From the NCBI RefSeq assembly GCF_002117445.1, contig NZ_CP019937.1:1609501-1673500 (forward strand): a stretch of 64,000 bases of DNA. The letters are read 5' to 3'. The position numbers and the translations under genes are program-made. Under the pieces are notes generated by a model. It made no database searches and was not told the origin of the DNA. It saw nothing but the letters and a program-made list of their open reading frames with translations. Source of the stretch: Ketogulonicigenium robustum (lineage in GTDB: Bacteria; Pseudomonadota; Alphaproteobacteria; Rhodobacterales; Rhodobacteraceae). Each line of letters opens with the position of its first letter. Within the stretch, counting starts at the first letter, position 1. This document shows positions 15,548 through 42,667 of the stretch, in pieces.

Positions 15548-16309
15548 ATGAAACACCACTGGCCCAAACCCAACTGGCGCAGGTGCGTGACACCTGTCTT
15601 CGTTGCGGCTGTGCTGTTGGGCGGCGGGAATGCCATCGCCCAAACCGTGCCAGCGGTGGGGCGCATCGAAATCAACGGCGCGGGGCATTGCAGTGCGGTT
15701 CTGATTGCACCTGACCAGGTGCTGACGGCGGCGCATTGCCTGTTCGACCCTGCCACCGGCGCGCGCCTGCCCGCGCAAGACATTGTCTTTCAAGCTGGTT
15801 TTTCACACGGGCGCGCCATGGCATTTCGGCAAATCCGCCGCATGACGGTGCACCCCGACCATCGCCCCGACACGGCACCCTCTGGCAACGCAGCACGCAG
15901 CGCGGCGGATCTGGCGTTACTGCAGTTGTTCCAACCGGTCACCGCGCTGTCGGGTATCACACCCCTCGTCATCGCGCCGGTCTTCCCGCGCGAGGGGGCC
16001 GTCACCCTTGTCGGCTATGGCAGCGGCGCGGCAAGCTACGTGCAGCAGCGCGAAAGCTGCGACCGCCACGGGGCGGACGGGGCGGTCTTGCTGTTTGCTT
16101 GCCATGTCGAACGCGGCGCATCGGGCGCGCCGCTGTTGGCGGAACGGGGCGATGCCGTGCAAATCATATCGCTAGTGTCGGCCGTCGGCCAAGTGGGCGG
16201 CGTCGATCTGGCGGTTGGCGTGGATGTGCCAGCCCAAATCGGCGCCCTGCGCGCGGCCTTTGATGCCGACGCCGCCCTTGGGGCCGAGCCACGCACGTCG
16301 CGGCGGTGA
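15548..16309 (+). CDS. Secreted trypsin-like serine protease
   Basis: 253 residues. A signal peptide covers residues 1-31 (basic start, hydrophobic VTPVFVAAVLLGGG, likely cut after AIA). The chymotrypsin-fold triad is complete: H63 in LTAAHC, D121 in SAADLALLQL and S192 in ERGASGAPLL. The serine motif is GASGAP instead of GDSGGP; the missing Asp normally stabilises the active enzyme after N-terminal cleavage, so activation may differ. The ATG has a clear ribosome site (AGGAG about 8 bases upstream). Substrate unknown; the protein should act in the periplasm or outside the cell. Confidence 0.86.
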   Translation: MKHHWPKPNWRRCVTPVFVAAVLLGGGNAIAQTVPAVGRIEINGAGHCSAVLIAPDQVLTAAHCLFDPATGARLPAQDIVFQAGFSHGRAMAFRQIRRMTVHPDHRPDTAPSGNAARSAADLALLQLFQPVTALSGITPLVIAPVFPREGAVTLVGYGSGAASYVQQRESCDRHGADGAVLLFACHVERGASGAPLLAERGDAVQIISLVSAVGQVGGVDLAVGVDVPAQIGALRAAFDADAALGAEPRTSRR

Positions 16310-16312
16310 GCC

Positions 16313-16341
16313 CCTTGAAAGCTGCGTAACAGCCCCCAAAT
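16313..16341 (+). promoter_or_regulatory. RpoH (sigma-32) type heat-shock promoter for hsp20
   Basis: A CCTTGAA -35 box at 16313-16319 is followed, after a 13-base gap, by CCCCCAAAT at 16333-16341. This matches the sigma-32 pattern (CTTGAA, then C-rich CCCCAT). It would start RNA near 16348, about 90 bases before the hsp20 start, exactly where the first hairpin of the leader begins. Confidence 0.7.
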
Positions 16342-16347
16342 CAGTTG

Positions 16348-16437
16348 CATCGGGATGCCGGTGACCGGGCCCGATGGAACCGCCCTGCCATCTGATGGAG
16401 GGCACAACTTTCGTTATCGCTCATCTGGAGGATGACC
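16348..16437 (+). promoter_or_regulatory. ROSE-like RNA thermometer in the hsp20 leader
   Basis: The leader folds by eye into three successive hairpins: CATCGGG (16348-16354) with CCCGATG (16370-16376); GCCCT and CCAT (16382-16391, one bulged G) with ATGG and AGGGC (16395-16403); and a last one in which GTTATC-G-CTC (16413-16422) pairs with GAGGATGAC (16428-16436), leaving G16419 bulged. The last hairpin buries the ribosome site and ends one base before the ATG. It contains TCGCT, which fits the ROSE signature UYGCU with its bulged G opposite the Shine-Dalgarno. ROSE elements of alphaproteobacterial small heat-shock genes melt on heating and free translation. Confidence 0.75.
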
Positions 16438-16911
16438 ATGCGTACCTTTGATCTTGCACCGCTTTACCGTGCCACTGTCGGTTTCGACCAAATCGCCGAT
16501 CTGATCGACCGCACCCTGAGTGCCGACAGCACCCAAACCAATTACCCGCCCTACAACATCGAAAAAACCGCTGATGACGCTTGGCGCATCTCGGTCGCCG
16601 TTGCAGGCTTTGCCGATGACGAGCTGGATGTAGAACTGCGCGAAAACGCCCTGATCGTGACCGGCCGCAAGGCTGACGACACCACCGGCGAGCGTAAATT
16701 CCTGCATCGCGGTATCGCCACCCGCGCGTTCGAGCGCCGCTTCCAACTGGCCGATCACATCCGCGTCGAAGGCGCGACCCACGAAAACGGTATGCTGCAC
16801 ATCGATCTGGTTCGCGAGGTGCCCGAAGCGCTGAAGCCCCGCCGGATCGCCATCACCAATGCCGGCCCGAAAGTCGAGCAAGCCTTGGTTGAAGCAAAAC
16901 CCGTCAACTAA
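16438..16911 (+). CDS. Small heat-shock protein, Hsp20 / IbpA family
   Basis: ATP-independent holdase that binds unfolding proteins in the cytoplasm. 157 residues; the alpha-crystallin domain spans about residues 35-130 (YNIEKTADDAWRISVAVAGF, ELDVELRENALIVTGRK, then FQLADHIRVEGATHENGMLHIDL). The N terminus MRTFDLAPLYRATVGFD is typical of the IbpA group. ATG 16438 is chosen over the ATG at 16432 because it lies seven bases from the GGAGG ribosome site, while 16432 is only one base away. A RpoH-type promoter and an RNA thermometer lie upstream, and a terminator at 16925 closes the unit. Confidence 0.94.
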   Translation: MRTFDLAPLYRATVGFDQIADLIDRTLSADSTQTNYPPYNIEKTADDAWRISVAVAGFADDELDVELRENALIVTGRKADDTTGERKFLHRGIATRAFERRFQLADHIRVEGATHENGMLHIDLVREVPEALKPRRIAITNAGPKVEQALVEAKPVN

Positions 16912-42464: not shown

Positions 42465-42539
42465 GCGGGCGTAGCTCAGGGGTAGAGCATAACCTTGCCA
42501 AGGTTAGGGTCGGGCGTTCGAATCGCCTCGCCCGCTCCA
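42465..42539 (+). tRNA. tRNA-Gly (anticodon GCC), copy 1
   Basis: 75-base cloverleaf: acceptor GCGGGCG pairs with CGCCCGC, D-loop TAGCTCAGGGGTAGAGC, anticodon GCC at 42497-42499 in the stem-loop CCTTGCCAAGG, T-loop GGCGTTCGAATCGCC, and encoded CCA at 42537-42539. Confidence 0.97.
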
Positions 42540-42592: not shown

Positions 42593-42667
42593 GCGGGCGT
42601 AGCTCAGGGGTAGAGCATAACCTTGCCAAGGTTAGGGTCGGGCGTTCGAATCGCCTCGCCCGCTCCA
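42593..42667 (+). tRNA. tRNA-Gly (anticodon GCC), copy 2
   Basis: Identical to copy 1 over all 75 bases, anticodon GCC at 42625-42627, with encoded CCA (42665-42667). The two lie 128 bases apart start to start as a recent tandem duplication. A rho-independent terminator follows at 42678. Confidence 0.97.

Follow-up and report, generated by a model that had tools for sequence, protein, structure and literature searches.

What controls the small heat-shock gene hsp20 of Ketogulonicigenium robustum, and at how many levels? In the window (the whole 64,000-nucleotide stretch of DNA that was analyzed), the upstream open reading frame ends at 16309, and the gap to the hsp20 start at 16438 is filled by a promoter and a leader. 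The features on which the analysis turns are as follows.

16314–16341, + strand: RpoH (sigma-32) type promoter, with -35 CTTGAA at 16314–16319 and -10 CCCCCAAAT at 16333–16341
16348–16376, + strand: hairpin 1, stable (predicted fold; helix 1 of the alignment)
16382–16403, + strand: hairpin 2, stable, GCCCU-G-CCAU/AUGG-AGGGC with the bulged G at 16387 (predicted fold; helix 2 of the alignment)
16413–16436, + strand: hairpin 3, presumed thermosensor, GUUAUC-G-CUC, loop AUCUG, GAG-GAUGAC (predicted fold)
16427–16432, + strand: Shine-Dalgarno (SD) sequence GGAGGA, read in the sequence and held in hairpin 3 with its first G in the loop
16438–16911, + strand: hsp20/ibpA, small heat-shock protein of 157 amino acids (NCBIfam IbpA model)

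We consider it very probable that these elements form a two-level heat-shock switch, in which an RpoH promoter feeds a ROSE-like RNA thermometer of hsp20. An earlier note on this DNA had proposed this reading, and it is supported by the universal presence of UYGCU and SD motifs in homologous leaders, by covariation, and by the spread of a covariance model of the leader in front of hsp20 genes.

The 157-residue protein matches the NCBIfam IbpA model with 158.2 bits (E = 1.2e-46), a score that does not reach the curated cut-off of 212. A single scan for Hsp20 homologues kept 80 proteins with 68–78% identity in the best segment, and the closest relatives are labelled mostly Rhodobacteraceae or genera of Rhodobacteraceae. 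The start codon occupies 16438–16440. An alternative start at the in-frame ATG at 16432 was dropped, because this ATG overlaps the SD sequence and the stem of hairpin 3 and the matches of the homologues start where 16438 lies.

Sigma-32 promoters follow the consensus CTTGAA with a CCCCAT-like -10 element. In the window, CCTTGAA is found at 16313–16319, and 14 nt separate CTTGAA from CCCCAAAT. A TTGAA or TTGAC box lies 110–150 nt upstream of the start in 80 of the 81 leaders (the window and the 80 homologues), the 81st (L069) being cut by a contig end. By scripted placement, in which the upstream box was misassigned at about five loci (L009, L017, L020, L021, and L050), the -10 block lies 16 nt beyond the box in 62 of these 80 leaders and 15 nt beyond it in 12, and the promoter consensus of the homologous leaders reads CTTGAAA followed by TTCCCANAT. 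The genome encodes one RpoH above the family cut-off; the other match, of 142 bits in a 677-residue frame, is probably RpoD. The marks of an RpoH-dependent promoter, namely the box, a -10 block at sigma-32 spacing, and an RpoH in the genome, are thus all present. Judged from this conserved promoter, RpoH would transcribe hsp20, with a putative transcription start near 16348 and the leader stretch included in the transcript.

The leader of about 90 nt between the promoter and hsp20 is predicted to fold into three hairpins, of which hairpin 3 alone covers the ribosome site. Hairpin 3 consists of nine base pairs and one bulged G (G16419) that faces the SD sequence within the motif UCGCU (16417–16421). 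This G is flanked by two C-G pairs, 16418–16431 and 16420–16430, and remains bulged in the predicted minimum-energy folds at 20–48 °C. The corresponding bulged-G position of hairpin 1 is 16357, where the minimum-energy fold of the window itself has a 3x1 internal loop. In all 65 leaders of the alignment described below, hairpin 3 has the lowest stability, with a median of -5.3 kcal/mol vs -12.8 and -12.0 kcal/mol for the others. Deleting the bulged G in silico stabilized hairpin 3 of the window from -7.7 to -11.5 kcal/mol and raised its melting point from 70 to 82 °C in a simple two-state estimate, whose absolute values are not physiological. A U(U/C)GCU motif with a bulged G is the hallmark of ROSE elements, and heat induction is weaker once this G has been removed (PMC11342760). 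The leader shows the sequence features and predicted structural features by which ROSE-like elements are recognized (PMC3669281, PMC11342760): it lies 5' to hsp20, UCGCU pairs with the SD sequence in the last hairpin, the number of hairpins, three, falls within the usual two to four with the 5' ones stable, and a bulged G is located opposite the SD sequence in the predicted fold.

Most of what the earlier note had described in this region is borne out. Its sigma-32-type promoter is there, with a box that recurs in nearly all leaders; its three hairpins fold at the positions listed above, with compensatory changes in their stems; and its last hairpin does place TCGCT and a bulged G on the SD sequence. 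The 9-bp final stem also stands, while its description as reaching the start codon is slightly loose, as the stem ends at 16436, one base short of a start codon that is mostly unpaired in the leader folds and whose G pairs downstream in a fold running to 16470. The leader had also been called compact, which does not hold, since its length is not unusual: the TTGAA box lies between -114 and -130 in 75 of the 76 leaders in which it was found for the distance count, and at -123 in the window.

The strongest support for an RNA element comes from the comparison of homologous leaders. UYGCU occurs 18–27 nt before the start in all 81 leaders, and AGGA or GAGG occurs in the last 22 nt, start codon included, again in all 81. 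Alignment A1 contains 65 of them; 16 were left out by eye (L006, L011, L017, L026, L037, L044, L048, L056, L060, L062, L066, L069, L072, L073, L078, and L079) because they were near-duplicates, came from truncated loci, or had a different spacing. AGGAT is invariant across the 65 rows. The stems of A1 hold 94.7% standard pairs, compared with 39.9–55.6% when the partners are slid, and the covariation score is 0.299 against 0.153 in shuffles and 0.048–0.106 in slid versions. Cells with two-sided changes number 139, vs 36.8 ± 8.0 in shuffles (none of 500 as high) and 20–49 in slid versions; counted by pairs, 13 of 25 show a two-sided change, which is more than in any shuffle but within the 9–13 of the slid versions. 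Helix 1 and helix 2 are paired in 95.1% and 96.1% of cells, respectively, each with two-sided changes in five of eight pairs. In hairpin 3, 40 rows have C-G as the loop-closing pair next to the SD sequence, 23 have U-A, and two have U-G; the four inner pairs never vary across the 65 rows and are hence silent on covariation, and the outer pair 101–124 is unpaired in 23 of the 65 rows. Pairing of the anti-SD strand with the SD region at the level of RNA is thus supported, with the covariation as direct evidence, and the conservation in 81 of 81 leaders together with this covariation rules out a chance origin. In the leaders of L044 and L078, additional sequence, TATCGCACAGTCTCGCTC, lies ahead of the SD sequence, as if the anti-SD strand were partly duplicated.

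A search pattern modelled on the window, TYGCTYN{2,9}RAGGAN{3,12}ATG, gave eight matches in the 2.71-Mb genome and none when reversed. Two of the eight are located at hsp20 starts, one being the window (by construction) and the other the second hsp20 of the genome; hsp20 was found at none of the remaining six loci, of which five represent one repeated sequence and one is single. An identical 27-base sequence is present five times on the minus strand (G000:C1 29072, 143219, 281781, 471757, and 500587), probably beside repeated rRNA/tRNA operons, a guess made from one copy.

The comparison also revealed a design that the three hairpins share. In the bulge columns of A1, G is found in 65, 61, and 65 of the 65 rows for hairpins 1, 2, and 3, respectively. 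When the 81 leaders were folded individually, a single 5'-side bulged G was predicted in three hairpins in 58 leaders, in two in 13, in one in nine, and in none in one; the window leader has it in two hairpins of its minimum-energy fold, with a larger internal loop in hairpin 1. Among 405 single-base shuffles of the leaders, none has a bulged G in three or two hairpins, and 400 random 98-mers from the same loci, some of which may overlap the element, gave one case with three such hairpins and four with two. An outside set of 30, made up of 29 loci from the class (three of them, L085, L086, and L096, from the same family) and E. coli, has the bulged G in three hairpins in 15 cases, in two in 11, and in one in four, and the E. 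coli ibpA leader has it in all three predicted hairpins. The bulged G opposite the SD sequence is well known; for the upper hairpins, conserved bulged Gs were not found described in the ROSE literature consulted, and the observation may already be in print.

The function of the 5' hairpins of ROSE elements has been described as "not fully understood" (PMC3669281). The shared bulged-G design, taken together with the self-repression known for IbpA, suggests that the upper hairpins are a candidate binding platform. In its full form, the idea would be that every hairpin of alpha- and gammaproteobacterial ROSE leaders carries a 5'-side bulged G, that the upper two constitute a conserved binding platform, for example for Hsp20/IbpA, and that the leader senses temperature through hairpin 3 and protein aggregation through hairpins 1 and 2; we regard this as unlikely at present. 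It does turn the conservation of the non-sensing 5' hairpins into a question that can be tested.

A related alternative treats the leader mainly as a protein-controlled repressor, with Hsp20 bound to its own 5' UTR and released when aggregates titrate it, so that melting is secondary. There is a precedent in E. coli, where IbpA represses its own translation via the 5' UTR in a manner that needs R93, and the authors point out that alphaproteobacterial IbpAs likewise have R93 and Y34 (PMC10474464). Both residues (E. coli IbpA numbering) are present in all 80 homologues, in the Hsp20 of the window, and in the second Hsp20 of the genome, and each is found in 28 of the 29 class proteins; this conservation may, however, be structural, and one class protein without the R and one without the Y (possibly the same protein) have matching leaders nonetheless. 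Beyond the protein, the two hairpins that do not hold the SD sequence show conservation backed by covariation and look similar to their E. coli counterparts; no description of where IbpA binds in the E. coli leader was found. In Pseudomonas, disruption of the first hairpin derepressed a reporter and the second hairpin alone was still thermoregulated (PMC3669281), so that heat sensing does not require the first hairpin. Protein control would not take the place of the SD hairpin and can coexist with melting. We lean against a mainly protein-controlled leader, in favor of the two-level switch.

Established models might have been expected to decide the class of the leader. At gathering scores, Rfam returned three tRNA matches and no ROSE in the whole window; two tRNA-Gly(GCC) genes, at 42465–42539 and 42593–42667, have equal Rfam scores and lie on the same strand 54 bases apart. 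In a relaxed search of 16200–16600, the best two of three matches were ROSE_2 (RF01832; 15.4 bits, E = 1.6, gathering 65) and ROSE_3 (RF02523; 14.6 bits, E = 1.7, gathering 43), the latter aligned with 37 nt of the window where the model has eight. RF00435 and RF01832 gave nothing at E ≤ 0.001 in the genome. In the 20 of the 80 homologous loci that were scanned, no Rfam ROSE match reached gathering and six loci matched at E ≤ 10; the best score was 33.9 bits for RF00435, against a gathering score of 45, and 29.4 bits for RF01832, against 65. Because the gathering score is not reached, the leader is not filed under RF00435, RF01832, or RF02523.

We compared these results with those of R1, a covariance model of these Rhodobacteraceae leaders, whose E-values are rough. 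R1 matches at least 136 of 149 family genomes and at least 48 of 289 class genomes, 44 of the 48 being from other families; the numbers are lower bounds owing to strict filters and a limit on how many candidates were scored. The counts include the genome of the window and some genomes that coincide with rows of A1 or are close to them (L085 and L015 have leaders that look identical), which ties the family count to the model. Of the 52 class places listed, the locus was inspected for 32 (L083, which is the window, L085–L113, L127, and L130), and hsp20 lies directly downstream in 31, with clpB in L130; the inspected family loci (L131–L140) have hsp20 in ten of ten. Overall, 41 of the 42 inspected hits at E ≤ 0.001 directly precede hsp20 and one precedes clpB. 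The E. coli K-12 ibpA leader was also found by R1, with 29.4 bits and E = 2.3e-5 in 39 kb. A second hit in the genome (G000:C1:2221641–2221743, 15.6 bits, E = 2.44) has no hsp20 in its locus and was taken as chance. Over the same 289 class genomes at E ≤ 0.001, RF00435 matches eight (one over the cut-off), RF02523 two (none over the cut-off), and RF01832 none, and among the 48 R1-positive genomes the numbers are three, one (at the clpB leader), and none, respectively. With so few of the R1-positive class genomes matching Rfam ROSE, many leaders of this type escape the present Rfam models. R1 in turn misses five of the eight RF00435-positive genomes, so the two models are complementary and R1 is no replacement. 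After this comparison, Rfam was set aside as arbiter.

Thermodynamic prediction was no more decisive. The mean unpaired probability of the SD sequence of the window, calculated with ViennaRNA, rises from 0.22 to 0.25 over 20–48 °C. The same calculation for E. coli ibpA gave 0.10 at 20 °C, 0.15 at 42 °C, and 0.14 at 48 °C, and this ROSE element is reported to open at about 42 °C (PMC9450479). Since the positive control shows no predicted melting either, the calculation was set aside as a test. Opening the SD sequence at 25 °C would cost 6.0 kcal/mol in the window, against a median of 4.7 kcal/mol in the 80 homologues and 2.8 kcal/mol at 20 other start sites of the window, three of which reach the value of the leader; SD burial alone would not prove a ROSE and is not exceptional here. 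The earlier note had asked for an Rfam search and for folding between 25 and 42 °C, and had named no ROSE hit and no melting of the last hairpin as grounds against its reading. To the letter, this is what we found, with no match at gathering and a predicted SD opening that hardly changes, yet neither test discriminates: the Rfam models match few class genomes anyway, and E. coli ibpA behaves the same in the folding calculation. In light of the E. coli control and the comparison with R1, neither failure counts much against a ROSE.

The nearly flat opening curve at 20–48 °C is also what would be expected of a fixed structured leader that lowers and stabilizes expression with no temperature response in the physiological range. 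The surroundings of the bulged G fit such a leader as well, as it sits between two C-G pairs, whereas in many ROSE-like thermometers its neighbors are a C-G pair and a U-G wobble (PMC12857270). We nevertheless judge a fixed leader very unlikely, given that E. coli ibpA, with the same UCGCU form, is reported to open at about 42 °C (PMC9450479) with no melting predicted. Hardly credible is a transcription-factor site in the DNA with incidental hairpins, an interpretation once given to ROSE nucleotides (PMC4166951, a review) and invited by the location of the conserved block just downstream of the promoter, as compensatory changes keep the pairing while the sequence varies and the position is near-fixed relative to the SD sequence and the start codon.

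The two-level switch would thus operate as follows. RpoH would transcribe hsp20 from the conserved promoter at 16314–16341. At low temperature, hairpin 3 would pair UCGCU and its flanks with the SD sequence, as the covariation indicates. Upon heat shock, by analogy with the ROSE literature, the bulged G would weaken the stem, allowing hairpin 3 to open and the 30S subunit to bind. Hairpins 1 and 2 would stay folded, and probably assist in folding, shield the 5' end, or act as a recognition site.

Related leaders were observed at other heat-shock genes. A short ROSE-like leader precedes the second hsp20 gene (L082, whose start codon lies near 1469, in the G000:C1:724744 region), with GUC-G-CUUGUUGAAG-GAC over the SD sequence, where the predicted fold has a GUC-G-CUU/AAG-GAC hairpin. 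R1 scores it at 24.3 bits in a focused search; it is absent from the genome-wide R1 search at E ≤ 10, which we attribute to the scoring of 150 of 1238 candidates in that search. At L129 (1493–1579, - strand) and L130 (1492–1592, + strand), R1 matches of 26 and 33 bits, respectively, precede clpB and not hsp20, this clpB being named by eye from a translation that resembles the start of the ClpB of the genome itself, and the Rfam ROSE_3 matches there are sub-threshold. Both keep an element like hairpin 1, with no UYGCU seen there by eye, and hairpin 1 may be a module common to heat-shock leaders. Upstream of clpB in the genome of the window (L143, G000:C1:18790) are CTTGTAA and CTTCCCAAATAT, the latter resembling the -10 block of the hsp20 promoter; a ROSE before this clpB was rejected, as R1 has no match there.

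Among known systems, the E. coli ibpA ROSE (RF01832) is similar in several respects. It has UCGCU and a bulged G on the SD sequence, an upstream CTTGAAA box, a GACCU-G-UCC..GGA-AGGUC hairpin 2, and a bulged-G hairpin 1. It differs in its predicted last stem, which has six pairs compared with nine in the window, and its Rfam model gives the window only 15.4 bits, as noted above. The Bradyrhizobium-type ROSE (RF00435) has a UUGCU-SD hairpin with an unpaired G in its model and, like RF02523, leaves a base unpaired on the 5' side of its first hairpin, yet the window is below gathering for both. The short ibpA thermometers of Pseudomonas likewise have a sigma-32 promoter, U(U/C)GCU-SD pairing, a stable 5' hairpin, and a free start codon (PMC3669281). 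In those elements the SD hairpin melts and the first hairpin is unaffected; they contain two hairpins in 61–62 nt (PMC3669281), whereas the leader of the window contains three in about 90 nt. A prediction of 2005, cited by both PMC3669281 and PMC4166951, had yielded more than 40 ROSE candidates in alpha- and gammaproteobacteria. Nautella sp. R11, of the Roseobacter clade (Rhodobacteraceae), belongs to the same bacterial group as the source of the window; ROSE-like motifs are reported there before ibpA and hspD, likewise small heat-shock genes, in one sentence of PMC3230580 that comes with no sequence, structure, or test. With the Nautella motifs and the 2005 predictions preceding it, the leader belongs to an already known kind; as a single element it is ordinary, a further ROSE-like leader in a family where a Roseobacter had already been noted to carry such motifs (PMC3230580).
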